DNA of 64,000 nucleotides from Thermococcus henrietii (GTDB taxonomy: Archaea; Methanobacteriota_B; Thermococci; Thermococcales; Thermococcaceae): the NCBI RefSeq assembly GCF_900198835.1, contig NZ_LT900021.1:1364001-1428000 (forward strand), given 5' to 3'. A program made the translations under genes and the position numbers. Shown in pieces: positions 21,960 through 38,892 of the stretch; the stretch's first letter is position 1, and each line of letters opens with the position of its first letter. A model generated the notes under the pieces. That model did no database searches, was not told the DNA's origin, and was given only the letters and a program-made list of their open reading frames with translations.

Positions 21960-23059
<1,100 letters not shown>

Positions 23060-23076
23060 CTTCCACCATCTCCCCA

Positions 23077-23148
23077 ATTTTAGGTTTTATAAAGGTTTCA
23101 GTGGAGGACACACCTTCTTTCGGGATTTTAGGTTTTATAAAGGTTTCA
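23077..23148 (+). repeat. Tandem 24-nt repeats containing TATA boxes
   Basis: ATTTTAGGTTTTATAAAGG followed by TTTCA occurs at 23077-23100 and again, identical, at 23125-23148 (48-bp period). Each contains TTTATAAA preceded by a purine-rich stretch, so they can be two tandem promoters or binding sites for the downstream replication operon. Confidence 0.65.
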
Positions 23149-23231
23149 CTTGGGAAATAAAGGACAAATATGGGATATTCAACTGGTAGCCTTTAAAAAA
23201 GCACAACGGGGCAAACTTTATGGTGAAGGTG

Positions 23232-23795: not shown

Positions 23796-26700
23796 AGCCC
23801 CCACCACAACACAAACCACCAACCAGTCCCCAGTTAGAACAGAGAAAAAACCCCTTAAAAAGACTGCCCTCACCGTCCAAGTCGAGAAGATACTCGACTA
23901 CCTGAACCAGTTCTACTTCGAGTGGCAGGGCTATCCAAAGGACAACCCCGATTACCTCGTCCGCATATGCAAGAACAAAAAAGACCGCTGGGAAGAAAAA
24001 CACTTCTCCCTCCCCCAAGTCGCAAGAAGGGATGAGGAGCTAAAAAACTTCATAACGGACGCCATATGGAACAAAAAGAGTCTGTATAACAGCATCAGAG
24101 CTTACAGTAGGGGAGCGAGCTTGAAAAAGTGCGGTGGAAAAGCCTGTTTTAAGGCGTTCAAAGCCATCCAAAAAGGGAGCAGTAGGGTTCTCCTGCTGGA
24201 TATTGACAAGGAGGGTCACGAGCCGTTCACCATCGAGGAGTTTGAGAAGGAGTTCAGGGAGCTCCTAAAGGAGATGAAGGATGCGGGCATCAAGTTCGTG
24301 TATTACAACAGCGGGCGTGGCGTCCACATCCGCATACTGCTTGATGAGCCACTGAGCGAGAACGAATACGGCAAAGTGATAGAAACACTGGCCCAGTATC
24401 ATCGGGAGATACTCAAGGAGGGGAGGCCTACTCTAACCATAGACACACAGGTTGGCGACTTGGCGAGAGTCTTCAGGACAGTCGGCTCTTACAACCACAA
24501 AAACCCGGTAGCACTTGTGGGCTCCGATATGAGGGGCATCGAAGGGGTCACTGAGAAGAAGAAACTCCTCCAGTTTGTGAAGGAAAAAGAGGGACTTCTC
24601 CAGAGGGTGAACGAAGCGGAAAAAACTCCGGATGAGAAATTCGATATATACAGTAACGATTTTGAAAACATCGCTAAGAAAATTGCCGAGATATGGAAAC
24701 CCTATTACAGAGAGGGGACGAGGCAAAACCTCGCCCTGCTACTGGCCGGCATCCTGAAAAAATACACAGTGTTAGATGAGGACAAAGTGGAGAAACTCTT
24801 CAGGGAAATTATCGAGAACTTGAAAGATGACGAAGAGGCTGTCAGATTAGGTGGCTTGCAAAATACCCTGAAAAAAGACAACCCAGCAACGATTACCCTC
24901 TTCTTCCTAAAGGGAGATAAAGGAGAAATTATTGACAGGAGCGGGCGGTTAGAGCAATTCTGCAGTGTGAACAACCTTAGCAAAGAACAGGGAGCAAAGA
25001 CCCTCGAAGAGCTCATAGAAAAAACAAGGGGAGCTTTGAAGGAAAAAGGATTAGCAGTCAAAGCGAGAGGGCTCATAGGCAGGAAACAATTTCAAAGAAA
25101 AATAACCCGGAAAGGGGTCGTGATAAGCTCTCTCGAAGTTTACAAGGATAAGGTAAAACTGTCCACAGCAAGATACAACGAGGAGGAGGGCAGGTGGGAA
25201 GTAATAGGCGAAGACGCCGTTTTTGATGGGAGCTTTAGGCTAAGGAAGATTGAAGTAATAAGAAGCGCAGACAAAAAAGCACCAACAAAATACTTTACAA
25301 TAGACTTCGTCAGCAAAAACGGGGAAAAAGAAACCTTGGAAAGAGTAACACTCCCCGAGATGGCGAATATCTTCGCCTCAACAGAATATGCAGTTATGAA
25401 GTCTACAAGCGAACTCAAGAAAATATTCCAGGGGATTATCTCCATCCTAAAGGACAAAAATAACATACAAGAAGAGAGCCTTTTCGAAGGCTTTGAATTC
25501 GAGATTATACACGAAGATGACTACCAGCTCGTCACGCAAAAAAGTGGCGAGATTCTGAATAACCTCGTGAAAATTGACGAAACCGCAGGAGAAGTCAAGA
25601 ATATGACAAAGCTCCTAACCGCTATGAACTGCATAAAAGACGACAAGCTATTATTCTTGCTCGCAGGCACGAGCTTCTCAGCACCCCTAAACGAATTCAT
25701 AGAATACAAACCAATAATATGGATATACGGTCCCCCATCAGTCGGCAAAACAAGCTCAGCGAGAATTTTCACAGAAAAAGCCTGGGGAGTAGAAGCCCCG
25801 GATGCAGTGAACATCACGGGAAGCAACTTCAGACTGGACTACTACCTAAAAGTTGGCTCCGTCCCACTTCTCGTAGATGACATATCTGAAATTTCATACG
25901 GAAAACTCGTAGACTCCCTAAAGTCCTATGCAACCAGAAACACATCAAACATAAGGGGAAAAGCGGACTTGACGATAGAACAATACAAGCGGACTGCAAG
26001 CTTGATATTCCTCTCAAACTACAAATTAAAACTCAAAAGGAAAGACGAGGCCTTTTTGGATAGGGTATTCCAGTATGAAGTCCAAGAACAAGTATTTGAC
26101 GAAAACTGCCCAAGAGGACTGGTAAGCTCCCTCCCAAGAGGAATTTTTCCAAAAAGCGATTTCTTCGGCCTCATCTTCTACAAACACCCAAAAGATTTAT
26201 TCTACGAAAAAGCGGGCGAAATAGAAGAAAAAGTTGGGAGCATCATACCAAGCGTCACTGGAAGGAGAGCAGAATTTTGGGCAAAACTACTTGTGGGGCT
26301 TATTGGCTTCAGGAACTTCTTGCAAATCGCACTTGAAGGGTTCCAGAACTTAGACCCAAAAGAAAACAAAGAACTGGACCTACCCGAACTGAAAAAAGCC
26401 ACCGCAAACTTTGAAAAACGGCTCGACAGCATCATCGAAAAAGCTCCCGAGTTAATAAAAGAAATTGAGAGCACCCAAGACGACGACACTGTGCTTGCGA
26501 TATATGCAAAAGACATACTGAGAGCCATAGTCAAAGACTCCGACCTACGCATAAGCAGGACGAAAAGAGGAAAAGAATACTTCTATGTGACGAGGGTAGA
26601 ACTCGAAGAAGGAAGAAAAAGAGACAGGCAAAAAATACGGAGCCTCTTTGAACGGATAGACAGCCTCAACCAACTTAAAAAAGCCCTCGAAGCCCTCGAC

Positions 26701-27516
26701 TCAGACTTCGTTGAGATTGGCAGATACAAATTCAACAACAAAAAAATAACAGCACTCCAGATAGACGCCGAAGTCGCAAGAAACCTGATAGAAGAAGATG
26801 AGTGGGGAGGAAGAAGCATAGAAAAAGAGCCCACAGACACCGACATAGGATACGCCCTAACCGATGCCCTTGACGCCTTCTCAGAACGGGGCACGAAAAA
26901 AATAGTGAGCCCCTTCATACTCTACAACCACCTAAACGAAAAGCTAAGCCACTTCGGCCCCAAGTGGTCCACCTGGACAGAAGAAGATATGATACTCCTC
27001 CTGGAACAATTAGCAAAAGAAAAAGCCATAGAGAAAGTGCTGGGGCTTGATGGGACGCCGACCTACCTTGTCGCAGATAAGAAGAAATTCCTTGAGAAGT
27101 TCCCAGAACTCCTCAAAAAAGAGGCTGAAAACAAACTCAAACTCACAGAAACCCCCGAAACAGAAAACACGAACGAACCGATGCCCCCAGACGACCTACT
27201 CAAAAGAGTCATCACCAGCGTCCTCGGAGCCACCACAGAAACTGACGAAGAAGGCCACAAACGCCTCAAAATAGACGACGCCGTAAGAGCCTACAACACA
27301 ATTATGCCCAGAGAAGGCTACCCCACTTGGGGCCACTGGACAAGAGGAGACTTCCTCGATGTCGTTTACTACCTCAGAAAAGACGGCCTCGTCAAGAAAA
27401 CAAAACGGGGCAGTATGACTTACTACTACATCATCGGGGACGAGGAGAAGACGGTCGAACGCTTCGTCGAAGCCCTAAAGATGATTTACCAAGAACGCTG
27501 GGGAGACGATTGGTAA
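23788..27516 (+). CDS. Primase-helicase replication protein of the element
   Basis: 1242 aa. N-terminal archaeo-eukaryotic primase-like domain: DxD at D138/D140 (LLLDIDKEG), SGRGVHIR with H180, and RVFRTVGSYNHK at 227-238. A central P-loop ATPase has Walker A GPPSVGKTSS (K654) and acidic Walker B VDDIS (D697, D698), followed by a helicase-type IFLSNYK sensor; this suits a superfamily-3-like replicative helicase. The C-terminus (~1180-1220) looks like a winged helix. Similar prim-pol/helicase fusions drive replication in archaeal plasmids and viruses. Coupled to the regulator upstream; iterons follow directly downstream. Coding strand strongly A-rich. Confidence 0.85.
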   Translation: MSEAPTTTQTTNQSPVRTEKKPLKKTALTVQVEKILDYLNQFYFEWQGYPKDNPDYLVRICKNKKDRWEEKHFSLPQVARRDEELKNFITDAIWNKKSLYNSIRAYSRGASLKKCGGKACFKAFKAIQKGSSRVLLLDIDKEGHEPFTIEEFEKEFRELLKEMKDAGIKFVYYNSGRGVHIRILLDEPLSENEYGKVIETLAQYHREILKEGRPTLTIDTQVGDLARVFRTVGSYNHKNPVALVGSDMRGIEGVTEKKKLLQFVKEKEGLLQRVNEAEKTPDEKFDIYSNDFENIAKKIAEIWKPYYREGTRQNLALLLAGILKKYTVLDEDKVEKLFREIIENLKDDEEAVRLGGLQNTLKKDNPATITLFFLKGDKGEIIDRSGRLEQFCSVNNLSKEQGAKTLEELIEKTRGALKEKGLAVKARGLIGRKQFQRKITRKGVVISSLEVYKDKVKLSTARYNEEEGRWEVIGEDAVFDGSFRLRKIEVIRSADKKAPTKYFTIDFVSKNGEKETLERVTLPEMANIFASTEYAVMKSTSELKKIFQGIISILKDKNNIQEESLFEGFEFEIIHEDDYQLVTQKSGEILNNLVKIDETAGEVKNMTKLLTAMNCIKDDKLLFLLAGTSFSAPLNEFIEYKPIIWIYGPPSVGKTSSARIFTEKAWGVEAPDAVNITGSNFRLDYYLKVGSVPLLVDDISEISYGKLVDSLKSYATRNTSNIRGKADLTIEQYKRTASLIFLSNYKLKLKRKDEAFLDRVFQYEVQEQVFDENCPRGLVSSLPRGIFPKSDFFGLIFYKHPKDLFYEKAGEIEEKVGSIIPSVTGRRAEFWAKLLVGLIGFRNFLQIALEGFQNLDPKENKELDLPELKKATANFEKRLDSIIEKAPELIKEIESTQDDDTVLAIYAKDILRAIVKDSDLRISRTKRGKEYFYVTRVELEEGRKRDRQKIRSLFERIDSLNQLKKALEALDSDFVEIGRYKFNNKKITALQIDAEVARNLIEEDEWGGRSIEKEPTDTDIGYALTDALDAFSERGTKKIVSPFILYNHLNEKLSHFGPKWSTWTEEDMILLLEQLAKEKAIEKVLGLDGTPTYLVADKKKFLEKFPELLKKEAENKLKLTETPETENTNEPMPPDDLLKRVITSVLGATTETDEEGHKRLKIDDAVRAYNTIMPREGYPTWGHWTRGDFLDVVYYLRKDGLVKKTKRGSMTYYYIIGDEEKTVERFVEALKMIYQERWGDDW

Positions 27517-28130
27517 GCTTTTTTTCTTCTCCCTCCTTCTCCATAAGCGGGACAAAAATATGAGATACACTGTGCCTTTCATATTTTCTGGGGACACTGG
27601 GACAGTATGGGGACACTGCCAATATTTCTTTAACTGTCCCATCCAAACGATAGCCTGGTGAACTCCCACTCAAAAATTCTTCAAGGGGGGCACTGGGACA
27701 GTGGTTTTTCGAGCATCGCATATTGTGGTAGGATTTGCGCAAAGGGGACACTGGGGCAGTGGGGGACACTTGTCGAAAAATTTTTAGTGTCCCCCGAATT
27801 TTGAGGCTGTGTGCTCTCTCGCTTAAGAATTCTTCAAAGGGGACAGTGGACAGTTGATTTTGGGTATCCAAAAATATAATTTGCACCCCTCTGTGAAAAA
27901 AATTAATCCCAAAAACTGCAAGTTCACTGTCCCCCCACCCCTTTGAATTTGAAGGCTATATTGCATACAGACCCAGAATCTGAGGGGGGACACTGGGGAC
28001 AGTAGACTTTACGATTGTAAACTATATTTGAATTTTGAGGCTGTATGCCCTCCAGCCTAAGAATTCTTCAGGGGGGACAGTGGGGACAGTAGAAGGGGTA
28101 AACAGGGGTGTCCCCTTTTTTATCACCCCT
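27517..28130. repeat. Iteron region, putative replication origin
   Basis: A 0.6-kb gene-free block with repeated GGGGACA(C/G)TGGGGACAGT-like units at 27590-27606, 27609-27620, 27685-27702, 27744-27771, 27839-27854, 27984-28003 and 28071-28090, and inverted ones at 27633-27640, 27786-27795 and 27925-27932. Several follow AAGAATTCTTCA (27824 and 28059 regions), and two units share a longer TTTTGAGGCTGTRTGC leader, so the basic unit is ~80-100 bp and degenerate. It lies directly after the primase-helicase gene and at the strand-composition switch point. Confidence 0.7.
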
Positions 28131-28131
28131 C

Positions 28132-28175
28132 ACGCGGGGAAGCTTAAGGCTTTTTGTCCCTTATATTAGTGGTGA
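28132..28175 (+). promoter_or_regulatory. Element-type promoter of the 28182 gene
   Basis: GCGGGGAAGCTTAAGG (28134-28149) as BRE/TATA, then TTATATTAGTGGTGAAAG with GGTGA (28171-28175) 6 nt before GTG 28182. Same architecture as the promoters at 34476 and 36570. Confidence 0.6.
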
Positions 28176-28181
28176 AAGCCT

Positions 28182-28772
28182 GTGGAAGTGGGCGATATTC
28201 TAAAAATTATAGCGGCCATCGCCATCATCGGCCTGATACTGCAATACGGTTACAAGACGATGAACAAGGGCAACAGTCAGACCAACACGGTCGTCAGCAC
28301 GGCCCAGAACACGATTAACAGTCTGGCCAGTAAGGCTGAGGTTCAGGCGAAGCTCACTGACCCGAAGATTTCAATAAGCTATGTTGTTTACAAGGATTCG
28401 ACTAACCCTGGCCAGTTCGACTTTGAGAGCGGGACTGGTGACCAGATTCTTGTTTCAGGGTCTGGTTGGGATGGCCTTCAGACGGCTTCACAGAACTATA
28501 ACTTGGTATTTTTCACAAAGGCTTCATCACTGCCAACGAGCGGTAAGTCCTTGAAGAGTGTCGTTTCAGGAAACTTTATTTCGTTCTCAGGGTCATCGTT
28601 CTACCAGCAGTTAAAGGCCGACTATACCTCAGCGGGTTCGTTTCCGATGACTGAATACTTTATCCTTGTAGACCCCCAGGAGAATTCAATAATTTCCTCA
28701 AGCGCTTCTTCAACTTCGGGCGGATATTATGCCATCATTACCGTTAGTATTCAGCAGGGATGGCTCGGGTGA
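28182..28772 (+). CDS. Membrane-anchored element protein, paralog A (196 aa)
   Basis: GTG start placed by GGTGA. One N-terminal membrane helix (ILKIIAAIAIIGLILQYGY, residues ~6-24) and an exterior domain rich in Ser/Thr/Gly. Shares ISYVVYKDSTNPGQF, the GSGWD block, FILVDP and the C-terminal GGYYAIITVSIQQGWLG with the proteins at 28900 and 30270, although the region in between has diverged. Pilin-like topology (short N-terminus, hydrophobic helix, beta-rich exterior) but no prepilin-peptidase site I can assign. Structural or surface role is inference. A T-rich tract follows the stop. Confidence 0.75.
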   Translation: MEVGDILKIIAAIAIIGLILQYGYKTMNKGNSQTNTVVSTAQNTINSLASKAEVQAKLTDPKISISYVVYKDSTNPGQFDFESGTGDQILVSGSGWDGLQTASQNYNLVFFTKASSLPTSGKSLKSVVSGNFISFSGSSFYQQLKADYTSAGSFPMTEYFILVDPQENSIISSSASSTSGGYYAIITVSIQQGWLG

Positions 28773-28776
28773 ATTC

Positions 28777-28799
28777 TTCTTTTTTCTCGCTTTTTCTTT
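28777..28799 (+). terminator. T-rich terminator
   Basis: TTCTTCTTTTTTCTCGC followed by a further TTTTT run right after the stop codon of paralog A; typical archaeal oligo-T termination. Confidence 0.5.
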
Positions 28800-28899
28800 G
28801 CGTGAACTTTAAAAAAGGGGAGTTCTAAGTGTATCTGTCTTAATTACGGGCCTACAATCTCCGCCCACAAACAGTTCACGAAGAGTGGTGGTGTCCACT

Positions 28900-29451
28900 A
28901 TGAGACGAAAGGCTGGCCTCAAAGGAGCTTTCAAGAAGTTCTTGGAAGTTTTGGGAGTCATATTCCTGCTTTTGTTTGCTATTGGTGCCTACACCGTGTA
29001 TGAAGAGAACAAAAACCCCTCAGGAAAGGTTTACACTCAGAAGGAAGTGCTCCAGGGCTGGGTGAACGCACGGGTCAAGTATGCACTTAATCACGATATA
29101 GAGATTGATTTCACTATATATCGGGACACTTCTAACCCGGGTCACTACAACCCCAAACTCGACCGTGCAATCGCAAGAGGTGCAGGGTGGGCCTTTTTGA
29201 ACGTAACCGTCGAAAGGTATAAACTATTCAAATTTGCTTATGTCCCGAAATTGACTAACGGAACGGACATATCCTCGCTCCAGTTTGAAAATTTCACGGC
29301 CAAGAATTTGTATGATGAACTGCACAAACTGGCCAATTCCAAAGGTCTGCCCCTAAACGCTGTATTTGTTCTCGAACCAAACGATGGCACGGGAGCAAAC
29401 GGGTATTATGGTATCGTCAATATAACCTTGTCAAGGAATTGGATTGGTTGA
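28900..29451 (+). CDS. Membrane-anchored element protein, paralog B (183 aa)
   Basis: ATG 28900 after GGTGGTGTCC; an upstream GTG is less likely. MRRKAGLKGAFKKFLEVLGV is a basic cytoplasmic head, followed by one membrane helix (VIFLLLFAIGAYTVYEE) and an exterior domain with FTIYRDTSNPGHYNP, FAYVPKL, FTAKNLYDEL and a C-terminal GYYGIVNITLSRNWIG. Very close to paralog C at 30270 and distantly related to paralog A. An oligo-T tract follows at 29453. Probably a surface or particle component; function unknown. Confidence 0.78.
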   Translation: MRRKAGLKGAFKKFLEVLGVIFLLLFAIGAYTVYEENKNPSGKVYTQKEVLQGWVNARVKYALNHDIEIDFTIYRDTSNPGHYNPKLDRAIARGAGWAFLNVTVERYKLFKFAYVPKLTNGTDISSLQFENFTAKNLYDELHKLANSKGLPLNAVFVLEPNDGTGANGYYGIVNITLSRNWIG

Positions 29452-29452
29452 G

Positions 29453-29472
29453 TTTTTCGTTTTTTCCTCTCT
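29453..29472 (+). terminator. T-rich terminator after paralog B
   Basis: GTTTTTCGTTTTTTCCTCTC immediately downstream of the paralog B stop codon. Oligo-T runs of this type end archaeal transcripts. Confidence 0.45.
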
Positions 29473-29548
29473 TGTGGTATTTTGGTGCACTTTCTGGATG
29501 GAAAGTTTGAAAAGTTCAGAAAACCAAGGGCCGCCTTGGTGGTTTCTC

Positions 29549-30166
29549 GTGGTGAAGCTTGATGAGGTGCTCAAGGACCGGGATGTTGATAAGGCCCTTG
29601 TCGAGGGCTGGATTAGGACGGATGGGACTGGGAGTTGGGGGCACTTTTCAAGGATAATTCGCCAGCACTTCGGGCTTGATGATGAGGACGAGGAAGTCCG
29701 CTCGAAGGGTCGGGATGAGCTCCTTGGTATGGCGCACACTCTTGCCCTTGAGATTCTGGGTTATGAGCCTCTTCCGGCCCTGGCGGCTCTGCCTCAGGTT
29801 GCTTGGTCGGCCCTTTTCTGGGCCAAGGTTGATGAGTTGAACGGTCTCTTGTCCCAGGCTGATGTCATAGCGTCTCGCTGGGATTTTGGGCAGTTCAGGG
29901 ATGAGGACGAGTTGTTCGTTATGAATATCCTGAACGGGCTTGTGATTCTGAGTGATGATATTGCTCAGATTCGGAAGGAGTTGCTGGATTTGGGTGTTGA
30001 TGAGCCCATCAGGATTACGAACCCTCTGCTCGTGGCCCTCTTCATAGAGGCTGGTATTGAGAGTGGCGTGTTCAGTGAGGATTTGGTGTGCGATTTGCCC
30101 GAGATGGATGATGATTCCGGGGATGATGGTGGCGAGTCGGTCGAGCCTTCACAGGAGGGTGAGTGA
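29549..30166 (+). CDS. Acidic soluble element protein, ~205 aa
   Basis: GTG 29549 is favoured because GGTGGT lies 5-6 nt upstream; ATG 29498 and TTG 29444 would add N-terminal residues including a hydrophobic stretch. Helical, acidic protein (VKLDEVLKDRDVDKALVEGW…, DDEDEEVRSKGRDELLGMAHTLALEILG…) ending in a very acidic tail (DDDSGDDGGESVEPSQEGE). It sits between paralogs B and C. No family recognised. Confidence 0.65.
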   Translation: MVKLDEVLKDRDVDKALVEGWIRTDGTGSWGHFSRIIRQHFGLDDEDEEVRSKGRDELLGMAHTLALEILGYEPLPALAALPQVAWSALFWAKVDELNGLLSQADVIASRWDFGQFRDEDELFVMNILNGLVILSDDIAQIRKELLDLGVDEPIRITNPLLVALFIEAGIESGVFSEDLVCDLPEMDDDSGDDGGESVEPSQEGE

Positions 30167-30269
30167 TTATGAAGCCCACAGGTTGCTTCAATTCTTCCGA
30201 GGTCCTTCACTTCAGGGGTTGCACACGAGGCGTTAAAACTTTCTCACAGTTGTTTGGGTGGTGGTGTCT

Positions 30270-30815
30270 TTGAAGCGTAGGGCAGGTTTCAAGGGTGCCA
30301 TCAAAAAGCTGTTGGAGGTCCTGGGTGTCATCTTCATCCTCATAGTGGCCCTCGGAGCGTATGCCGTTTATGAGGAAAGCAAGACGCCTTCTGGGAAGGT
30401 GTATACTCAGAAGGAAGTGTTCCAGAACTGGGCGAACGCCCGGGTCAAGTTTGCACTTGAGAACGAGATAGTGCTGAACTATACTGTTTACAAGGATACG
30501 GCTGAGCCCGGTCGGTTCAACCCTCAGCTTGACCGTGCTGTGTCCGTTGGGCAGGGTTGGGAGTTCCTCAACGACACCGCTCATCGTTTCGGCCTTCTCC
30601 AGTTTGGTTATGTGCCGAACCTTGCTCCTGGGTCGAAATACAAGCCGTCCGCTTTGAAGAAGTTCACTGCTAAGAACTTTTATGATGAGCTTGTGAGTTT
30701 GGTGAAGGTGCAGGGCCTCCCGTTGAACGCTACTTTCGTCCTTGAGCCTTTCGGGGGAGAGGGTGGCTATTATGCTGTTGTTTCGGTTCACTTGGAGCGT
30801 GGGTGGGGCGGTTGA
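30270..30815 (+). CDS. Membrane-anchored element protein, paralog C (181 aa)
   Basis: TTG 30270 aligns with the ATG of paralog B and follows the same GGTGGTGTC. LKRRAGFKGAIKKLLEVLGV, one membrane helix (IFILIVALGAYAVYEE), then PSGKVYTQKEVFQNWANARVKFAL, nearly the same as in paralog B. The C-terminus is GGYYAVVSVHLERGWGG. The repeated duplication suggests subunits of one assembly. Coding strand is G/T-rich, unlike the left arm. Confidence 0.78.
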   Translation: MKRRAGFKGAIKKLLEVLGVIFILIVALGAYAVYEESKTPSGKVYTQKEVFQNWANARVKFALENEIVLNYTVYKDTAEPGRFNPQLDRAVSVGQGWEFLNDTAHRFGLLQFGYVPNLAPGSKYKPSALKKFTAKNFYDELVSLVKVQGLPLNATFVLEPFGGEGGYYAVVSVHLERGWGG

Positions 30816-30875
30816 GCCTCCCCGCTTTTCTGTTTTCTAAGTGGCTTTTTCAAAAAAGCAGAGAAAAAGAATTCT

Positions 30876-31361
30876 TCAGGACTTTGCGGGGCTTAGTTGG
30901 ACTTTCCAGCCCAATATCCCAACATCGGGAGTGGGAGAAACGGTTATCCCGTGCCCAGGAGCTTCGTTCACGAATTCTCTTGCCCTTCTCTGTAGGGCCT
31001 CGCCCATTTCCGTGTGCCCGAGGGCTTTGAGCACTTCGATGACTTTAACTTCGCCTCTCTCTGTGATGAGCGCTCTCACTTTCTCCCAGAGGTCGTCGTT
31101 AGCCGAGTTGATGCTCAACTCCAGTTTTTCGAGTTTCTCCTTCAGTTCGGCGAGCTCCTTCTTGAGCTCCTTATTTTCCGCCTTCAGCGCCATATTCTCA
31201 GAAAGGAGTTCTGCCTTTTCTCTTTTTTCAAGGAACAATTGTGAGAGAAAATCGCCCAGCCCTATGGAGGGGGGTTTTGCCTTCATCATCTCATCGTAGA
31301 TGTCCGACTCAAGAACGAGGCTTATCAGTCTGGGCCTGTCATACTTCCTCGGTCTTCCCAC
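30876..31361 (-). CDS. Coiled-coil DNA-binding protein of the element (161 aa)
   Basis: GTG 31361 (VGRPRKYDRP) after GGTGAAAGT; TATA ATTTATATA-like element on the minus strand near 31379-31388. The AT-hook-like GRPRK, then LISLVLESDIYDEMMKAKPPSIGLGDFLSQLF, which looks like a ribbon-helix-helix-type unit, then a long coiled coil (residues ~55-95, ENMALKAENKELKKELAELK) and a C-terminal helical region. Likely a transcription or partition-type DNA-binding protein. The only gene opposite to its neighbours in this arm apart from 33707. Confidence 0.65.
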   Translation of the reverse strand: MGRPRKYDRPRLISLVLESDIYDEMMKAKPPSIGLGDFLSQLFLEKREKAELLSENMALKAENKELKKELAELKEKLEKLELSINSANDDLWEKVRALITERGEVKVIEVLKALGHTEMGEALQRRAREFVNEAPGHGITVSPTPDVGILGWKVQLSPAKS

Positions 31362-31660
31362 ACTTTCACCGAAGTTAATTATATAAAAAAACAACTTAAC
31401 CCTCCGAGAATCAGGTTGAGCTACTCGCCCCTCTCCTCGTTCTTGTTTATCTGTTATCTGTTCTGTCTGTTCTGTGGGGATTTTTTATTTATATAAATAA
31501 AAAACTCCTCAAGATAGAGAACAGACTGACTTCCTTCCTGTCCTGAGGCGTGGGGTTTGAGAGGAAGTCAAGTGTTCCCGAGGAAAAAGAGAAGAAGAGA
31601 ATAATTGGGAACTTCTCAAGTGAAGAGTGAAGGACTGCCCTCTTCCCCGCTGGTGTGGTG
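31362..31660. other. Palindrome-rich intergenic region
   Basis: Between divergent genes. Contains a perfect 24-bp AT palindrome at 31481-31504 (TTTTTTATTTAT and its complement), flanked by 9-bp arms GTCTGTTCT (31465-31473) and AGAACAGAC (31518-31526), then GACTTCCT (31528-31535) with AGGAAGTC (31562-31569). Direct CTGTT repeats precede it (31450-31475). It could be a regulatory hub, a terminator pair or an accessory replication site. Confidence 0.55.
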
Positions 31661-31700
31661 AGGCTTAAGGCTTTTTGGCCCCTTTATTCTTGGGGGTGTG
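31655..31700 (+). promoter_or_regulatory. Element-type promoter of the 31703 gene
   Basis: GGTGAGGCTTAAGGCTTTTT (31657-31676) matches the element's BRE/TATA signature; GGGGGTGTGGT (31692-31702) provides the RBS before ATG 31703. Confidence 0.55.
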
Positions 31701-31702
31701 GT

Positions 31703-33661
31703 ATGATTGATGTCCTCTCGTTCCTGCTCGCCTTCCTCGGGGGTTTTGTTCCGGCCTACACTATCAACCATCCTGTTCCCGTCATAATTCCTCCCTCGGC
31801 TGTCCTCTCATCAGCTTCGCCCCACCAACTTGCTGGTGGCAGTGCGGGGGCAGGGAGTCCTGGGAGTTTTTTCACTGTGTTGGTGGTCCCCGATTCCGGG
31901 TCCTCTTTCCACTATGTTGAGGTTATTTATGAGGCCGATAAGCCAGCGAGTATAAGTGCGAACCTGTCCAATTTGAGCACTATTTGTGCGTATATTCGTT
32001 TCCCAAAACTGCCTTCGGGGTATAAGGACGAATACCCAAGTATTAAGCTTTTGGGGTGGGGTGTGACTTTCATCACTCGGTTGAAGGAGAGGGTGCTGAC
32101 GGTGACTCCCAGGGGCCCTGCGTTTGTTTACAGGGATGTGCTCGTCCACGCTTCTCGGATTATCTTTTACAATACTTCGGAGATTCGCCTTTATCCGCCT
32201 TCGGCTTTCAGTTGGGGTATTGTCCCCACTAAGAAGAAGGGAGAGGCCTGGCGACTCATCAGTTTCTATGCGGGTAATATGACCCTTTATGTTTTTGCGA
32301 GTGGTGTCGGGCCTGTTTGGTATACTGGACAGCTCAGTTTCAGCAAGAGTGTCGAGCTTCAGTGGATACAACTGTGGGATAAGGCGAACAATTTCTCTTC
32401 CGTTATTGAGAGTCAGCCTCTTGATGATGGGGGCAATTCGTCAGGGGCTTCGGATAATTCTACTAACTCGACGGGCAATAACAACGGCACAGGCCCATCG
32501 AATTCTTCTAACTCGACTAACTCCTCGGTGAGCGTGGAGCCCGATGACCCGAGTTATGTTCTCAAGCAGGCCGTTCAGGAGATGGAGCGGGATTCCCACA
32601 GTTATGATGACGCCAGCTCGTTCTCGAATATTTACAGCACTGGGCCGTTCCACTACAAGTTTCCGAGGCTGTGGTTTTATCATCATACTGAAAAGTGGTC
32701 TGTTTCTGATGGAGTGACCGTCAAGCATCGGAGTATTAAGGAAGCGTATTTGCCGATTGTTCCGCTCTCGCAGGTTGCGGAGTATTTGAACCTCACGGTG
32801 CCCGATTACTGGAAGAATAATTTGACTATGATGGATTTGGCCGTTTTGGCCAATAAGAGCTTGACCTATATTGAGGACCTTGTGGTGAACCTCACCGTTC
32901 GAAAGTATGAGGCTTTGATGGGGAGTTCAACCAATTTGAGGGCCGAGGGCTTGAGTTATATTGACGGGCACTGGCTTGTTAAGGTGAGTGGCTCCGAGTC
33001 GGTGATGGTAACGCTCACGGTTTCAGAGGGGAAGACTATTGTCGGCACCCTTCACCCGATTGCTCGGTGGACTGTTGTAAGTGCCTTTCCCGCATCTGGC
33101 TATATCCTCGTGAACAAGCATACTGGCGAGGCCTATATTCGGGTTTACCCAGAGGGTGACTTGCCCACTTCACAGTTCGGGGTTATCACTGGCACAGTTG
33201 TGTTGTATGGTGGCGAGGCCATCGTGACGACTTGGAAGGATGGGCTCCCAACGGGGGTTTTCACGAAGTATATTTACCGTTACAAGGCCAGCGTGAAGTT
33301 GGGGAGCAAGGCCCTCATAAAGGCTCACTTGAAGGACCTTCACCTAACTTCCGTGCTCAACCAATTGGGCTACAAGTTGTATGCCCAGAACGATGATTGG
33401 GCCCTCTACCGTTTCGGCCTCTCGAAGAAGGAAGTAAGAGCCCTTCAATATGAGCGGGAAGCGGGGGCTTTTCGTCTTTTCTGGGCTTATTTGGAAGATT
33501 CGGGTTTGGTCTGGGTGTTCGACCCGTCGTTGAAGAAATTGTCTGATGATGTGAAAAAACGGGTGTGGGTGAACCCGGCCCGTTTGGTCCTTTCCTCAAA
33601 CGACCTGGTGGATGGTGCAGTTAGCCGTAAGGGTGTTTTCTTCGTCTACACTGATACCTGA
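31703..33661 (+). CDS. Large secreted element protein (652 aa)
   Basis: ATG 31703 with G-rich RBS. N-terminal signal/anchor (VLSFLLAFLGGFVPAY). Exterior region of beta-rich sequence interrupted by an Asn/Ser/Thr/Gly linker (residues ~255-290, GGNSSGASDNSTNSTGN...) with dense N-glycosylation-type sites. The second half (LPIVPLSQVAEYLNLTVPDYW…, IYRYKASVKLGSKALIKAH…) has no recognised domain and no clear C-terminal anchor. A surface, adhesin or spike-like role is inference. The linker separates two probable globular parts. Confidence 0.75.
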   Translation: MIDVLSFLLAFLGGFVPAYTINHPVPVIIPPSAVLSSASPHQLAGGSAGAGSPGSFFTVLVVPDSGSSFHYVEVIYEADKPASISANLSNLSTICAYIRFPKLPSGYKDEYPSIKLLGWGVTFITRLKERVLTVTPRGPAFVYRDVLVHASRIIFYNTSEIRLYPPSAFSWGIVPTKKKGEAWRLISFYAGNMTLYVFASGVGPVWYTGQLSFSKSVELQWIQLWDKANNFSSVIESQPLDDGGNSSGASDNSTNSTGNNNGTGPSNSSNSTNSSVSVEPDDPSYVLKQAVQEMERDSHSYDDASSFSNIYSTGPFHYKFPRLWFYHHTEKWSVSDGVTVKHRSIKEAYLPIVPLSQVAEYLNLTVPDYWKNNLTMMDLAVLANKSLTYIEDLVVNLTVRKYEALMGSSTNLRAEGLSYIDGHWLVKVSGSESVMVTLTVSEGKTIVGTLHPIARWTVVSAFPASGYILVNKHTGEAYIRVYPEGDLPTSQFGVITGTVVLYGGEAIVTTWKDGLPTGVFTKYIYRYKASVKLGSKALIKAHLKDLHLTSVLNQLGYKLYAQNDDWALYRFGLSKKEVRALQYEREAGAFRLFWAYLEDSGLVWVFDPSLKKLSDDVKKRVWVNPARLVLSSNDLVDGAVSRKGVFFVYTDT

Positions 33662-33706
33662 CTTTCCACTTTTTTTGAAATTGAAAATAGAGAAGAACAG
33701 GCCACT

Positions 33707-34420
33707 TCAGAAGAAGACATCTTTGATGGCATCAACGATGCCCCTGCTGTCTATGAGGAGTTCCTTCGAGATGGTATACTCCTGACCGTCAGCGGTCAGC
33801 AACCTAATCTTGAAGCGGAAATCCATCTTTTCACCAGTTATCAAGCTCCACTTCTTCTCGGTTGTGACGACGAGGGAGAGAGTGCAGTCATAGTAGGTGG
33901 TTGCGGGGGTCGTGTTAGTGGCCTTCGTGGTGAAGGATGCGTTGCAGAGGCCGAGCTTGTTGAGGTAGTTGAAGTTGAAGTCAATCGGGATGTAGTTCAT
34001 AGCCGTGTTTATGTTGAACTCCTTAACGACATCCTGAGAGGGGATGTTTAGGGTGTCCCCGTGTAGTCCTTCTGCTATTTTTGTCCCCAGGTCGCCCTTG
34101 AGGATGGCTATCTTATCGAAGAAGAACTGGCCGTTCGCCGTCTTGTAGAAGCTCATCAGCACTCTGTCCCCGGGCTTTATGTTGTAGACTTCGACTTCAA
34201 TTGGGATGACGGTTTTCTGGTCTTTGAAGTAGCCGCCGCCTTCGAAAACGGCCTTGTCTCCAGTGTCGGGGTGGAGCAGTTTTATGTTTGGGCTGTGAGT
34301 GGTGGCTGGTGTCGTGTGCTGGGTGAGGTTTGAGAGGTAGCCGTTCTTGTAGGCCCAGTATCCTACGGCGAGTAATAGGAGTAAAAACAACAGGTCGCTT
34401 GAATTGGCTCGGCGTTTCAC
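33707..34420 (-). CDS. Membrane-anchored element protein (237 aa)
   Basis: Starts MKRRANSSDLLFLLLLLAVG: basic head, one membrane helix (residues ~9-25), Thr/Pro-rich spacer (TQHTTPATTHSP), then a beta-rich exterior domain with two cysteines (LCNASF, YYDCTLS) that could form a disulfide. Promoter on the minus strand (GCGGGGAGGGTTAAAGTG, 34447-34466, then ATTAGTGGTGAAAG) belongs to the element family and is divergent from the Cas4-like gene. Not recognised. Confidence 0.75.
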   Translation of the reverse strand: MKRRANSSDLLFLLLLLAVGYWAYKNGYLSNLTQHTTPATTHSPNIKLLHPDTGDKAVFEGGGYFKDQKTVIPIEVEVYNIKPGDRVLMSFYKTANGQFFFDKIAILKGDLGTKIAEGLHGDTLNIPSQDVVKEFNINTAMNYIPIDFNFNYLNKLGLCNASFTTKATNTTPATTYYDCTLSLVVTTEKKWSLITGEKMDFRFKIRLLTADGQEYTISKELLIDSRGIVDAIKDVFF

Positions 34421-34446
34421 GCTTTCACCACTAATACTTGGGCTGA

Positions 34447-34492
34447 GGCACTTTAACCCTCCCCGCGTGTCTGGTGAGGCTTAAGCAATTTT
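34447..34492. promoter_or_regulatory. Divergent element-type promoters
   Basis: Minus: GCGGGGAGGGTTAAAGTG at 34449-34466 for the 237-aa gene. Plus: GAGGCTTAAGCAATTTT at 34476-34492 for the Cas4-like gene, whose GTG 34518 follows GGTAAGAGCT. The two face away from each other with overlapping regulatory space. Confidence 0.55.
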
Positions 34493-34517
34493 GTTACTAT
34501 TTTATTTGGTAAGAGCT

Positions 34518-35423
34518 GTGGAAGCCCCCCAGTCCCCCAATAGTGTGGTTTCGGATTTTGTGGAGCAGGCCTTGAATATCATCCTTCACCGTTCCTCGGA
34601 TTTCTCCTCGCTTTCCCAATCAGAGCTTGATGAACTGGCCGATAGGGTTGAGAAGAGGGCCCGCAAGAGCACGCACAAAGTTCGGGATGGCTACCTTCCG
34701 ATAAGCCTCGTCGGCAGGTGCGAGGTTATGGCTTACTCCAAGGTGAAAGCGGCCCTTTCAAAGGCCACCCGCTCAGGGAACGGTGAGAGCACAAGATACC
34801 TCTGGGGAAGGGCCGAGGGATTGAACACAAAGAGCAGGTTCAGGGGCTCGCTCCTTGAAGAGTTCGTTGGTGAGGCCCTTGAGGATTTTGCAGAATTTTA
34901 CAGCGAGAAGACTGGCACGAAAGTTGTGTTTCAACACAACAGGCTTCTCGTGGGCACGATACCTGGGTTCAAGGAAGCCCGCTTCAAGGGGTTCGTGAGC
35001 GAGGTTGATTTCTCCTTTGAGTTCTACTCCGAGGAGGGCCTGACTTTTGAGCTTGGTATTGAGTTGAAGAGGAAGAACAAGTCGCCCGAGTTCGACCAGT
35101 TGAGCAAACTCTGGTATCACGACTTTTTCTCGATGAAGTTCTTCGCCCTGAAGTTCGACCGCCTGTGGATGGTGAACGCTCACCCGAGGAATTCGTTCCA
35201 GATGGAGTTTTATCTAAGTGGACCTGAGCGGACGGCCTTCGCTTATGAGCTCGCTGAGATTTTGAAGCGGTGGAACGCTGATGAGCCCTCACTACGCCCA
35301 AACTCGTGGTATTGCAGGTATTGCGATTTTGGCCGTTCGGGAAAGTGCCCTCTGCTGATGAGCAGGCCGTCGTCGGAGTTTTCAGGCGTCAAGTGGCTCG
35401 ATGCCAAAATTGTTTTCAACTGA
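34518..35423 (+). CDS. Cas4/RecB-like Fe-S PD-(D/E)XK nuclease
   Basis: 301 aa from GTG 34518 (MEAPQSPNSVV); an earlier TTG lies inside the promoter. Nuclease core: RGSLLEEFVGEALEDFAEF, then GFVSEVDFSFE with the catalytic Asp, and LTFELGIELKRKNKS with the ExK motif. C-terminal WYCRYCDFGRSGKCP plus an N-terminal cysteine (LVGRCEVMAY) give the four-cysteine Fe-S arrangement of Cas4 and AddB-type enzymes. Expected to trim DNA 5' or 3' ends. No other CRISPR gene is near, so a role in element replication, recombination or anti-defence is more likely than adaptation. Confidence 0.75.
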   Translation: MEAPQSPNSVVSDFVEQALNIILHRSSDFSSLSQSELDELADRVEKRARKSTHKVRDGYLPISLVGRCEVMAYSKVKAALSKATRSGNGESTRYLWGRAEGLNTKSRFRGSLLEEFVGEALEDFAEFYSEKTGTKVVFQHNRLLVGTIPGFKEARFKGFVSEVDFSFEFYSEEGLTFELGIELKRKNKSPEFDQLSKLWYHDFFSMKFFALKFDRLWMVNAHPRNSFQMEFYLSGPERTAFAYELAEILKRWNADEPSLRPNSWYCRYCDFGRSGKCPLLMSRPSSEFSGVKWLDAKIVFN

Positions 35424-35464
35424 TGGGGGGCCGAGTCCCCCTTTTAAAGTGGTTCCCCGCAGGA

Positions 35465-35512
35465 CAGCGGGGAGGTTAAGGTGTTTGAGTGAAGATTATT
35501 ATGGTGATGGTG
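35465..35512 (+). promoter_or_regulatory. Element-type promoter of the 35513 gene
   Basis: CAGCGGGGAGGTTAAGG (35465-35481) as BRE/TATA; GGTGATGGTG directly before ATG 35513 as RBS, with several in-frame ATG/GTG codons just upstream. Confidence 0.5.
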
Positions 35513-35956
35513 ATGGGAAAGCAGAGGCCGAAGGATGAGGGGACGGCCACCACTGGCCGATTTTACATCAGGCAGGATTGCGCCTCAGTCAGCCCGAGGT
35601 TTGATGTCCATATCTACCCGTCGGCCATAGAGGAGAAGCCTGCCTTGAGAAGTTTCCTCTTTCGGTGCTCAGACTGGGAGTATACCCCTGTGGAGCTCCG
35701 GATTTACGGGGTCAGTGATGAGCCCATAACGACGCTCTTTGGGGCGAAAGTCAGTTATGTGGATTTGGCCCGTTTCAAGAAGAACACGAACAGTTACCGC
35801 TTTCAGCTCTCTATCCCAGCCCGCTTTTTGACCCTGATTAAGAAGGTCCTCAAGGATTTGCCCTCTTCAGGGCCCATAACGGTGAGGGTTGAAAAGAGGG
35901 ATGGGTTCAGGAGGAAACTCATAGTCCTTGAACTTCACGCCGACGAATTCGATTGA
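35513..35956 (+). CDS. Small beta-rich element protein, 147 aa (paralog of 37756)
   Basis: ATG 35513 chosen from the promoter distance; earlier starts add up to 8 residues. VELRIYG, YRFQLSIPARFLTLIKKVL and GFRRKLIVLEL match in order VKLRILK, TRFQFTIPQRVVTPLEDVL and GSDFLVCEL in the 37756 protein. The 'FxxxIPxR' strand also recurs in the 23232 protein, hinting at an AbrB-like or related DNA-binding beta fold. Functional call is inference. Confidence 0.65.
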   Translation: MGKQRPKDEGTATTGRFYIRQDCASVSPRFDVHIYPSAIEEKPALRSFLFRCSDWEYTPVELRIYGVSDEPITTLFGAKVSYVDLARFKKNTNSYRFQLSIPARFLTLIKKVLKDLPSSGPITVRVEKRDGFRRKLIVLELHADEFD

Positions 35957-36338
35957 GTTTCCACTTCCCGATTGGACAAGTTTGTTCCTACAGAGAATAT
36001 AGTTGAACACCCAAACGGCCCTCTGCGGCCTTCTTTTCCTGTTCTTGCCTTGTTGCCCGCAGGTGAAGTTCCACTTCGCAACGGGTATAAGATTAGGTTA
36101 GCCTAATTGGTTTTTACATAGTTCACCTATTTGACCATACTCCGACCCAGACTTTTCCCGACTTTTCAACTTCAACTCACTACTTCGACCTGACTGACCG
36201 ATGACTGACTATCAAGTTATTTCTTCGGGAAAATCTTGGAGTTCAGTATGGGCAAACTGCTGAACTATGTAAAAGCCTCACTCGCTCGGCATCTCTCCAC
36301 TTCGCAACTGGTTTAAGATTAGGGGCCTCTAACTGCCT
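35957..36338 (+). ncRNA. Structured non-coding RNA candidate with nested helices
   Basis: No ORF. Perfect 14-bp arms TTTTACATAGTTCA (36112-36125) and TGAACTATGTAAAA (36261-36274) enclose 9-bp arms TTTTCCCGA (36153-36161) and TCGGGAAAA (36225-36233). A TATA-like GGTATAAGATTAGG (36084-36097) lies about 25 bp before the outer arm, so a transcript could begin there. A near copy of that promoter, CCACTTCGCAACTGGTTTAAG, recurs at 36297-36317. ATTAGG-TTAG-CCTAAT (36092-36107) may be an operator. Confidence 0.5.
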
Positions 36339-36518
36339 TCAAATTGTGAACGGCACAGGCCCCTTCATATCCATCCAGAGGAGAAACAGTCCGAAGGCCA
36401 CTCCAAGAATCGTTAGTTTGAAGGCCTCAACGGCCCCTACCAAGTGGCAGGTGGCCGCTTCGAGGGCTATCACGGCTGAAATTCTAACGAGGGCTTCGCT
36501 CAGGTTGCGTTTTTTCAC
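36339..36518 (-). CDS. Small two-helix membrane protein of the element (59 aa)
   Basis: GTG 36518 (KKRNLSEALVRISAV...). Reads IALEAATCHLVGAVEAF and LTILGVAFGLFLLWMD, two probable membrane segments, ending KGPVPFTI. An element-type promoter GAGGCTTAAAGGA (36548-36560, minus strand) and AGGGGGAGG just upstream support expression. Below usual annotation length limits; function unknown. Confidence 0.55.
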   Translation of the reverse strand: MKKRNLSEALVRISAVIALEAATCHLVGAVEAFKLTILGVAFGLFLLWMDMKGPVPFTI

Positions 36519-36547
36519 GCCTCCCCCTAACTCATCTTGGCCTGTGG

Positions 36548-36611
36548 TCCTTTAAGCCTCACCACTCACGCGGGGAGGCTTAAGCAATTTCATCCCCTAT
36601 ATTAGTGGTGA
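36548..36611. promoter_or_regulatory. Divergent element-type promoters
   Basis: Minus: GAGGCTTAAAGGA (36548-36560) for the 59-aa protein. Plus: GCGGGGAGGCTTAAGCAATT (36570-36589), then CTATATTAGTGGTGAAAG with GGTGA (36607-36611) before GTG 36617. Nearly the same as the promoters at 28134 and 34476. Confidence 0.6.
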
Positions 36612-36616
36612 AAGTT

Positions 36617-37618
36617 GTGGAGAAACTGGTAATAGGCCTGTTGCTTGTTGGTGTAGCCGTCCTCGTGACTTACCACTACAAGGCTTCGGTTGTCGGCATA
36701 CTGGGGATGTTCAGCGACAAAACGAACCGCCAGGTGATAGGAACCAACGATGAGCCTGCTTATCATCTTGAAGTCGTTGCGGCCCCAGGGCAGGAGCTCA
36801 AGATGGTGCCCGACAACTCCTCAAGTGGGGTTTACAAAACCACAGTCCTCGTCATATCGGACAGGCCTTTGAAGGTGAACTCCAGTGTCCCGCTCGGGAC
36901 GGACTTCCCGCTTGCTGGAGCCCCAAAGGTCGAAAAGCTGGTGAAGGTTTCAAACACGAGCGATGGCAAGAAGGAGTATCTGTATGAGATTTCCCTGAAG
37001 GTCAGGGTTCAGAACGAGAGCAAAGTCCAGGGGTTCATCGGTGGCCACTTTGTTTACCTCACGGCAGATAAGGGCACTGTGGGCTCCTCAACCTCGGGCT
37101 CTTCATCTCCTATTGCGAAGCCAATAACGAAAGTCTTTCAGGTGAATTCGAGCGATGAGATTATCAGGTTTGGCTTTTACCCAGCTCAGGGTGTCGCTGA
37201 CGGTCGGAGTGTGACTTTGGAGTATTTTAGCCCCAGTGGCGAGGTCCTCAAGAACGGAACTCTCTACCAGCTCTCGGTGAACGACTCGCTCACGATAGCG
37301 AACATAACTGACGGTGCGAGCATCCAACTCAATTTCCCGCTTAACACGACTCTGAAGCAGGATGTCGAGTATTATGTCCAGATTGAAATTGGGAACTTGT
37401 CCTCGGGAACCATAGTGGCCAATTACACTATTCCGGTCCCGCTCGATGAATACAAGAGTGTGGTCTTTTGCTTTGATAAGACCACTACGGTGAATTCGAT
37501 GAGTTCGCAGTTCGTGGCGAACTTGGAAGAGCCTGACCCGGTTAGTGGGGTCATCTTTAGTGATGCTGAGGGTGGCCCGCTCTTGAAGTTGGGCGTCATC
37601 CTCGTGCCTCGTGGATGA
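36617..37618 (+). CDS. Membrane-anchored element protein (333 aa)
   Basis: GTG 36617, 5 nt after GGTGA. One N-terminal membrane helix (LVIGLLLVGVAVLVTYHY, residues ~4-21), then a long beta-rich exterior of repeated immunoglobulin-like strands with N-glycosylation sites and a Ser/Gly linker near residues 160-175 (GSSTSGSSSP). No recognised domain. Promoter shared with other structural-type genes, so probably co-expressed surface or particle component. Confidence 0.72.
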   Translation: MEKLVIGLLLVGVAVLVTYHYKASVVGILGMFSDKTNRQVIGTNDEPAYHLEVVAAPGQELKMVPDNSSSGVYKTTVLVISDRPLKVNSSVPLGTDFPLAGAPKVEKLVKVSNTSDGKKEYLYEISLKVRVQNESKVQGFIGGHFVYLTADKGTVGSSTSGSSSPIAKPITKVFQVNSSDEIIRFGFYPAQGVADGRSVTLEYFSPSGEVLKNGTLYQLSVNDSLTIANITDGASIQLNFPLNTTLKQDVEYYVQIEIGNLSSGTIVANYTIPVPLDEYKSVVFCFDKTTTVNSMSSQFVANLEEPDPVSGVIFSDAEGGPLLKLGVILVPRG

Positions 37619-37642
37619 TTGCCCTGGTTCATCTTCTCTTCC

Positions 37643-37650
37643 TTTTTTTC
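37643..37650 (+). terminator. T-rich terminator
   Basis: CCTTTTTTTCTG about 25 bp after the stop of the 333-aa gene; typical archaeal oligo-T signal. Confidence 0.4.
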
Positions 37651-37713
37651 TGTGTTGGTTCTTGGGTTTTTCTTTGCGGTTGAAGGCCGTGTTCGGGCAT
37701 CACCACTGGTTGG

Positions 37714-37750
37714 TATGCTTAAGGTGACAACGCTATGATTTTAGTGGTGT
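37714..37750 (+). promoter_or_regulatory. Element-type promoter of the 37756 gene
   Basis: TATGCTTAAGGTG (37714-37726) as BRE/TATA variant, then GATTTTAGTGGTG, the same start-region signature seen at 28160 and 36595; GGTG sits 6 nt before GTG 37756. Confidence 0.5.
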
Positions 37751-37755
37751 CGGTA

Positions 37756-38178
37756 GTGGGTCGGGATAAGAAGGTTGGTGTAAGTGAAGCCCGTTTGATA
37801 CGGTCGCAGGAGGACTGGGGGAGATACTCATACAGGGTGTATGCTTATGTTGGGAAGATTCATCCTGATTTGACGGCGAGGCTTAATAAGAAGGTCAGCG
37901 AGGAGCTGGAAGTGAAGTTGAGGATTCTGAAGGGCAGGAAAAAGCTGGTTGAGGTTCCGTTCACGGCGACCCTTTTGAGGGTTGTTATGCTTGGGGTGAA
38001 CAAGGAGGGGAGGAGTATTCATAAGGGGACGAGGTTTCAGTTCACTATTCCTCAGAGGGTGGTTACTCCTCTTGAGGATGTGCTTGGGTGGGAGCGGAAT
38101 AGTTGGCCTGTTCAATTGTTTTTTGAGCACGATGAGCGGTTCGGTAGTGATTTTCTCGTGTGCGAGTTGAAGCTTTGA
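37756..38178 (+). CDS. Small beta-rich element protein, 140 aa (paralog of 35513)
   Basis: GTG 37756 chosen by analogy with other element genes (…TTAGTGGTG then start); ATG 37735 lies within the promoter. Conserved with the 35513 protein in strand order, including TRFQFTIPQRVV and FLVCELKL. Two positively charged helices near residues 40-65. Possible DNA-binding or virion-associated protein; family unknown. Confidence 0.62.
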   Translation: MGRDKKVGVSEARLIRSQEDWGRYSYRVYAYVGKIHPDLTARLNKKVSEELEVKLRILKGRKKLVEVPFTATLLRVVMLGVNKEGRSIHKGTRFQFTIPQRVVTPLEDVLGWERNSWPVQLFFEHDERFGSDFLVCELKL

Positions 38179-38334
38179 GGGAGTTTTCTTCAATTTTTCT
38201 TCTGTCCCTGGACCTTAGCCCCGCTGAAGAGGTCCTGTTTTCACATAAGTTCTTTTTTTTGACTGGTTATCCGAGTCCTATCTTGAGAGCCCCGCTGTGC
38301 TCGTCTCGTGCGCAAAATTCAAGCCTGCCCCGAA

Positions 38335-38395
38335 ACCTTAGGAGCGAGGGCCCGTAGCCTTAGCAGGATAGGGCGCCGGACTTCTAAGCCGGAGG
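38335..38395 (+). repeat. Inverted 61-nt copy of the tRNA-Arg 5' half and its upstream flank
   Basis: Matches the minus-strand locus 38846-38905 (13 nt of upstream flank, acceptor, D arm and anticodon arm) with one inserted T and one substitution in the anticodon stem. It stops just past the anticodon arm, near where the att core begins. The piece comes from host sequence lying outside the att core, yet sits inside the element in reverse orientation, so it and the tRNA gene flank int(N) as inverted repeats. Confidence 0.9.
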
Positions 38396-38460
38396 GAGCG
38401 TAAAAAAATTACTTTTGACCCGTGTGCCCGTTTCGCAAGTTTTGACCCCAAATCGGAGCC

Positions 38461-38496
38461 CTTATAAGGCTGGAATTTGTACAACTTTTGTACAAC
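38461..38496 (+). promoter_or_regulatory. int promoter with tandem TTGTACAA operators
   Basis: CTTATAAGG at 38461-38469 is the TATA box. TTGTACAA, a perfect 8-bp palindrome, occurs at 38477-38484 and 38488-38495, centres 11 bp apart (one helical turn), covering the expected transcription start. A second identical pair with the same 11-bp spacing lies at 38681-38688 and 38692-38699. Confidence 0.7.
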
Positions 38497-38517
38497 ACGG
38501 GTTTGGAGGTCACGGCT

Positions 38518-38892
<375 letters not shown>

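Follow-up and report, generated by a model that had tools for sequence, protein, structure and literature searches.

Inverted copies of the target tRNA 5′ part beside the attachment sites of Thermococcales elements look like souvenirs of past integrations

The window, that is, the whole stretch of 64,000 nucleotides of Thermococcus henrietii analysed here, contains an integrated element of 16.9 kb (21960–38860), both ends of which are bounded by the att core. The core is a perfect direct repeat of 45 nt (21960–22004 and 38816–38860) and represents the 3′ half of tRNA-Arg(TCT), which was the sole tRNA of the window (38816–38892, minus strand, ARAGORN) and a single-copy gene in the genome. The features of the locus are listed in Table 1. 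The att core lies within the integrase gene, and integration divided this gene into int(N) and int(C), which share the reading AGPAGFEPATSGLE across the 45-nt core in the same frame. The int(C) part matched PF16795 (E 2e-31) and the integrase family phrog_5127 (E 2e-48); it carries the R..KxxR..H..Y pattern of an archaeal tyrosine recombinase, and the R, KxxR, H and Y columns were invariant across its relatives in the alignment. The duplicated core comprises tRNA nt 33–77, and tRNA-Arg is intact. These properties are those of SSV-type elements. The core differs from the attP core of pTN3-like integrases, which is a tRNA 5′ half. For the int(N) domain, searches gave no convincing PDB or Pfam relative, and its structure model was of low confidence (pLDDT 54).

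Table 1. Positions of the element, its attachment features and the inverted copy in the window
Feature	Position	Strand	Remark
Element	21960..38860	.	45-nt direct repeat at both ends; split integrase in frame
int(C), catalytic part of SSV-type tyrosine recombinase	21959..23059	+	R..KxxR..H..Y present
att core, distal copy, tRNA nt 33–77, joined to int(C)	21960..22004	-	
Copied host flank directly 5′ of tRNA, short of TATA box	38325..38347	+	Closest to other Thermococcus species
Copied tRNA-Arg(TCT) nt 1 to ~47–48, inverted relative to tRNA	38348..38395	+	Weak match onward to 38400
One-base T insertion, CTAG of tRNA lost	38360..38361	+	From alignment
Anticodon arm of copy	38376..38392	+	Loop-proximal pair 31:39 broken, A at 38380
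Candidate int(N) TATA box CCTTATAAGG	38460..38469	+	Downstream of copy; putative promoter role
Tandem TTGTACAA palindromes, site 1, at int promoter	38477..38496	+	2 of the five GTAC of the element
int(N), integrase N-terminal part, in frame through core	38521..38860	+	Putative GTG start after GGAGGT
Tandem TTGTACAA palindromes, site 2, inside int(N)	38680..38699	+	~122–135 bp from tRNA 3′ end
Restored target tRNA-Arg(TCT), with the 5′ half from the host and the 3′ half (38816–38860) from the element	38816..38892	-	

Among those ORFs of the element that were scanned against Pfam and PHROGs, with structural genes being sought, a convincing family match was obtained for the integrase only. Two large ORFs of 1242 and 668 aa (23788–27516 and 31655–33661) had no convincing Pfam or PHROG match, and practically no relatives of the 668-aa protein turned up among 94 Thermococcaceae genomes. 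Possibly, the element is a virus that has yet to be described. A sequence of about 55 nt (TCACC..CGCGGGGAGGCTTAAG..) was located 5′ of several ORFs of the element (28123–28178, 31644–31699, 34437–34491 and 36536–36614) and was partly inverted (34418–34484); it is a possible shared promoter or operator. Furthermore, an inverted repeat of 53 nt (36109–36161/36225–36277, 75%, 63-nt spacer) was situated between element genes.

The initial annotation had described an inverted copy of 61 nt at 38335–38395, composed of the tRNA 5′ half and 13 nt of upstream sequence and lying about 450 bp away. These particulars were correct, with a spacing of 440 nt between the arms of the inverted repeat (38325–38360/38880–38915 and 38361–38400/38841–38880). 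In the BLASTN alignment, the segment matched tRNA nt −12 to 47 in inverted orientation, with 96.7% identity over 61 nt (E 1.8e-23); its local score was 110, whereas 100 shuffles reached 26 at most. The length of 61 nt was reproduced, yet the homology to other Thermococcus species was longer (query 76–146, i.e., 38325–38395, 94%), with a flank of about 24 nt, and the copy passed the core edge in the anticodon loop to run through the 3′ anticodon stem and the variable loop. The order on the plus strand was host flank, tRNA nt 1, D arm, whole anticodon arm and variable loop. Hence, the copy contained the part of attB that is missing from the core plus an overlap of about 15 nt with the core. It differed from the tRNA by an inserted T in the D arm (CCTAGC to CCTTAGC, at about 38360) and by the change of C31 to A (38380). 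The host TATA box was outside the copy, the homology ending just downstream of it; homology through or upstream of this box was not supported, as 62 of 300 shuffles were as good.

The recurrence of the copy was explored in elements with a related integrase taken from Thermococcales genomes, of which 35 split-integrase elements were mapped in all. In a first set of 25 elements for which both att ends had been located, the 1.5 kb inside the int(N) end was aligned with the target tRNA and its flank. An inverted 5′-half copy was present in 3 of the 35 elements, and each copy corresponded to the element's own target: Arg-TCT in the window (score 110, 420–481 bp from the tRNA end), Gly-GCC in G044 (score 83, 352–412 bp) and Ser-GGA in G000b, a second element in the genome of the window (score 56, 64–113 bp). 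The shuffle maxima were 26 for these three. All three strong matches were inverted, none was direct, and all were located less than 500 bp from the core. The chance of such closeness to the tRNA (113–481 bp) at random was about 1.6e-4, a post hoc value. The other 22 elements of the first set gave target-tRNA alignments at shuffle level and had no copy, and about 10 further mapped elements had none either. When 39 kinds of tRNA were scanned against the 25 elements, 3′-half cores were found in all and 5′-half copies of any other tRNA in none. Five fuselloviruses searched with Thermococcus tRNAs had clear 3′-half cores and no 5′-half copy, and viral contigs yielded no further examples by integrase or tRNA 5′-half patterns. 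With the copy as query against the 94 family genomes, the aligned strong matches outside the window's genome were, among the matches listed, tRNA-Arg genes.

The three bearers of a copy belonged to one integrase clade of 10 members (support 100/99). The integrase of G044 was the nearest to that of the window (42% identity). A phylum-wide search gave comparable scores in those ten clade members only, and a search of genome contigs returned one clade member, which was already known. The comparison of related elements for a fragment matched to their own tRNA target had been set beforehand as a check, and absence of the copy in close relatives had been taken as the sign of a random duplication. 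Such fragments were found in G044 and G000b, the former having the closest related integrase; random duplication is rejected by recurrence and position.

Besides the element of the window, its genome contained two more split-integrase elements (G000:C1 at about 1,771–1,777 kb and about 34–55 kb; L088, L127 and L128), which sit in tRNA-Ser(GGA) and tRNA-Arg(CCG), respectively, and the first of which has its own inverted 5′-half copy. The int(N) parts in one integrase clade were of two kinds (38521–38814 in the window; loci L072, L078, L084, L086 and L088). One kind was a small beta-rich domain without a family match, with TTGTACAA sites, and the other was a short sequence that resembled a ribbon-helix-helix by eye in G071, G087a, G089 and G093C14. 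The presence of two kinds in one clade suggests swapping of the N-terminal part.

The source of the copies was evaluated from the host flank. The 16 nt that precede the copied tRNA in G044 (TCCACTGGCTTGAACT) had 2/16 mismatches to the tRNA-Gly loci of G047 and G035, whereas 10/16 positions mismatched the locus of its own host. The window flank had 3/24 mismatches to G024 and G062 versus 5/24 to its own host. Most of the genomes compared were one strain per species, and the cases were three in all. For G044, the flank sequence is decisive in indicating that the copy was acquired in another host; for the window, the flank is consistent with a foreign derivation, and drift from the lineage of its own host may contribute. 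The lower mismatches to other species thus point to copies taken in earlier hosts and carried along with the elements. A copy made from the tRNA of the present host after integration is disfavoured by the flank comparison and by the removal of CTAG, and reverse transcription of the tRNA as the source was rejected because untranscribed promoter DNA is included.

This removal of CTAG was examined against the word content of the element. CTAG occurred 0 times in the element against 23.6 expected; the observed and expected counts were 0/43.1 for GATC, 0/31.0 for CATG, 1/37.5 for ACGT and 5/31.0 for GTAC. In the host DNA of the window, CATG, ACGT and GTAC were near expectation, and GATC and CTAG were low. 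The tetranucleotide purge (21960–38816) suggests that the element, in the form of free DNA, was heavily exposed to several restriction systems. The tRNA 5′ half holds one CTAG, and the extra T of the window copy removes exactly that word; therefore, the selection that acted on the remainder of the element has probably acted on the copy as well. The same T insertion was present in G000b, where CTAG is not avoided (15 observed against 18.8 expected), and there it needs another reason than CTAG avoidance.

Moreover, position 31, the anticodon-stem base adjoining the crossover loop, was altered in all three copies, and the G044 copy had two loop changes besides. Over nt 10–48 of the three copies, substitutions fell on 9/51 positions of the anticodon arm versus 1/66 elsewhere (Fisher p 0.002, post hoc and from a manual count). 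The strand exchange of the SSV1 integrase takes place at the anticodon loop (PMC8371274). Restriction avoidance as the reason for the C31 change was rejected, the words removed by it not being depleted (observed/expected 101/92 for GGCC and 1/1.2 for GCCGGC). Judged by their sequences, neither a working tRNA nor a sound 5′ half could be rebuilt from any of the three copies.

On these grounds, we consider the copy to be, with about even confidence, a captured and disarmed attB fragment that arose by aberrant recombination linked to the att site in a previous host. At its own integration site in such a host, the element would have received a duplicate of about 70–80 bp of the target locus, beginning immediately 3′ of the TATA box of the tRNA and reaching slightly beyond the anticodon arm. 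The duplicate would have been placed near the attachment site in inverted orientation and then carried as the element moved between hosts. The likeliest route would be aberrant recombination or repair while the integrase holds attP and attB together. In the synapse of tyrosine recombinases, the sites are antiparallel, as established for Cre and lambda Int. An antiparallel attP/attB synapse would account for the position of the copy near att as well as for its inversion: the 5′ arm of attB would be juxtaposed to the int(N) side of attP, its sequence running outward in the order seen in the copy, and a failed or repaired reaction would copy about 75 bp across. Alternatively, the orientation may reflect survivorship, since recombination with a copy in direct orientation would tend to remove int(N). 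The right ends of the copies (nt ~47–55) lay 10–17 nt past the loop, off the presumed strand-exchange point, so normal strand exchange would not have produced them; this right-hand boundary is at odds with a simple crossover of the integrase at the loop. We infer the involvement of the integrase or the synapse. Thus, of the earlier idea that the copy came about through integrase activity, a product of integrase-linked activity is plausible, and a low-specificity activity of the pTN3 type cannot be assumed. At present, the copy resembles a passenger: its crossover region is disarmed, the forbidden restriction word has gone, a promoter is absent, and no tRNA can be encoded by it. Selection for the disarming is likewise something that we infer, and the copy seems to be without function.

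A function could nevertheless be indicated by the similar site of two of the three copies, just upstream of the integrase promoter. Under this alternative, the copy would be a maintained attB-like site that the integrase or its N-terminal part binds beside TTGTACAA, regulating its own promoter or shaping the attP complex, and it would be refreshed when the target changes. We regard this as possible yet rather unlikely. The TTGTACAA palindromes were located about 122–135 bp from the tRNA end in the window, G044, G000b and G002 and at 121–143 bp in G027 and G006; they are candidate arm-type, regulatory or operator sites. Since 4 of the 5 GTAC of the purged element sit within them, the repeats are evidently constrained. 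Three elements had a copy beside att, and copies occurred only in the subgroup with TTGTACAA about 122 bp from the tRNA end (3/6 versus 0/19). However, the other three members of this subgroup had no copy at all, the crossover-proximal stem was broken in every copy, and the spacing between copy and palindrome differed in sign and size (about +90, +55 and −45 bp among the three), which argues against a fixed recombination complex containing the copy. More broadly, one clade of suicidal integrases might repeatedly copy part of its target locus into the attachment region and maintain it there as an accessory att site, matched to the target and exchanged whenever the target switches; we find this proposal doubtful. 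If it were true, the previous host could be read from every element.

Repair is known to leave short inverted templated insertions, and a break 5′ of or in int(N) might have been repaired from the nearby tRNA locus on the other strand, independently of the integrase. The ends of the copies off the crossover point agree with such an insertion. Against it, the same tRNA segment would have been chosen three times, from three different tRNAs and in one integrase clade only, and the G044 flank places the event in another host. Hence, this explanation is considered improbable.

The initial annotation had also proposed that the copy could serve as a substrate for inversion of int(N), by analogy with the pTN3 integrase. 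Inverted repeats of about 70 bp flank int(N), and inversion of the DNA between two oppositely oriented tRNA sites is carried out in vitro by the pTN3 integrase (PMC5495485); if the copy recombined with the core or the tRNA, about 450 bp would be flipped and the integrase switched off. However, the loop-proximal stem pair was broken in all three copies, and the loop of G044 was changed. In the integrated state, the inversion would bring the D-arm insertion and the stem mismatch, i.e., a defective 5′ half, into the single-copy tRNA gene. Furthermore, the parallel did not hold, as the pTN3 integrase belongs to another att type, with a tRNA 5′ half as attP (PMC8371274) instead of the 3′ half found here, and its low specificity could not be assumed for the integrase of the window. 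An inversion switch is thus very unlikely.

A role as RNA, another suggestion of the initial annotation, fared no better. The copy places sense tRNA sequence on the int strand and might give a transcript like a tRNA 5′ half, or one that base-pairs with the antisense tRNA sequence made when, after integration, transcription of int(N) reads through the tRNA. The G000b copy is situated within the reading frame of int(N), so its transcription is to be expected of necessity. On the other side, the host TATA box was not copied, no promoter was recognisable, two of the three copies were upstream of the integrase promoter, and the RNA fold of the copy was unremarkable (z −1.23). In the window, the candidate int(N) TATA box comes after the copy, which is therefore probably absent from the int mRNA. 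A function as RNA is therefore given very little weight. The same holds for a second attP of the pTN3 type, by which the element would hitchhike on the integrase of another element. Cores of the 5′-half type (about nt −2 to +49) cover nearly the same tRNA segment as the copy, but a tRNA formed by integration there would lack a promoter and have a defective 5′ half, the host flank of the copy extended beyond these cores, and the anticodon arms were mutated. A sequencing or assembly artefact is practically discounted by the single-contig genome and by diverged copies in three elements of two genomes.

Compared with known systems, the element resembles the SSV-type suicidal integrase elements of Archaea in its att site in the integrase gene, 3′-half tRNA core, int(N)/int(C) split and R..KxxR..Y residues. 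Unlike these, it adds an inverted copy of the target 5′ half with host flank near int(N), which was not detected in about 32 other Thermococcales elements or in the five fuselloviruses. In the pTN3-like integrases of Thermococcus, attP is the tRNA 5′ half (PMC8371274), and the copied segment (nt 1 to ~48) is nearly identical in extent to their core; the working core of the window, however, is the 3′ half, and the copy lies outside it with host flank and a broken anticodon arm. Attachment cores of the pTN3-like 5′-half type (about nt −2 to +49) were observed at L367–L368 (G092), L373–L374 (G093) and L383 (G067), where the targets of the integrases were tRNA-Leu(CAA), tRNA-Gly(TCC) and tRNA-Pro(CGG), respectively.

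The nearest published parallel found was in Caldiarchaeum, where a tRNA-Thr 5′ fragment with upstream sequence lies beside an inserted element and was left by mobile-element recombination (PMC3293823). That fragment comes from a disrupted tRNA gene, of which it is the displaced half, whereas the copy of the window is an extra one, inverted, inside the element and from an earlier host. A model in which two integrated elements recombine by inversion and thereby switch specificity (reviewed in PMC8371274) likewise addresses the change of target by suicidal integrases with int(N) and int(C) kept, but it does not predict an inverted 5′-half copy beside int(N). In full-text searches of open-access literature, no description of inverted 5′-half copies beside archaeal integrases was found among the papers listed or read.

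The copies, at least one of which was picked up in an earlier host species, look like souvenirs of past integrations. They show that the att region of such elements takes up target DNA, and they bear on the open question of how suicidal integrases switch tRNA target and host. A copied attB fragment with host-specific flank is a sequence record of an earlier host, which is clear in G044. Moreover, a small group of elements is now defined for the study of integrase-linked capture, crossover disarming and target switching.
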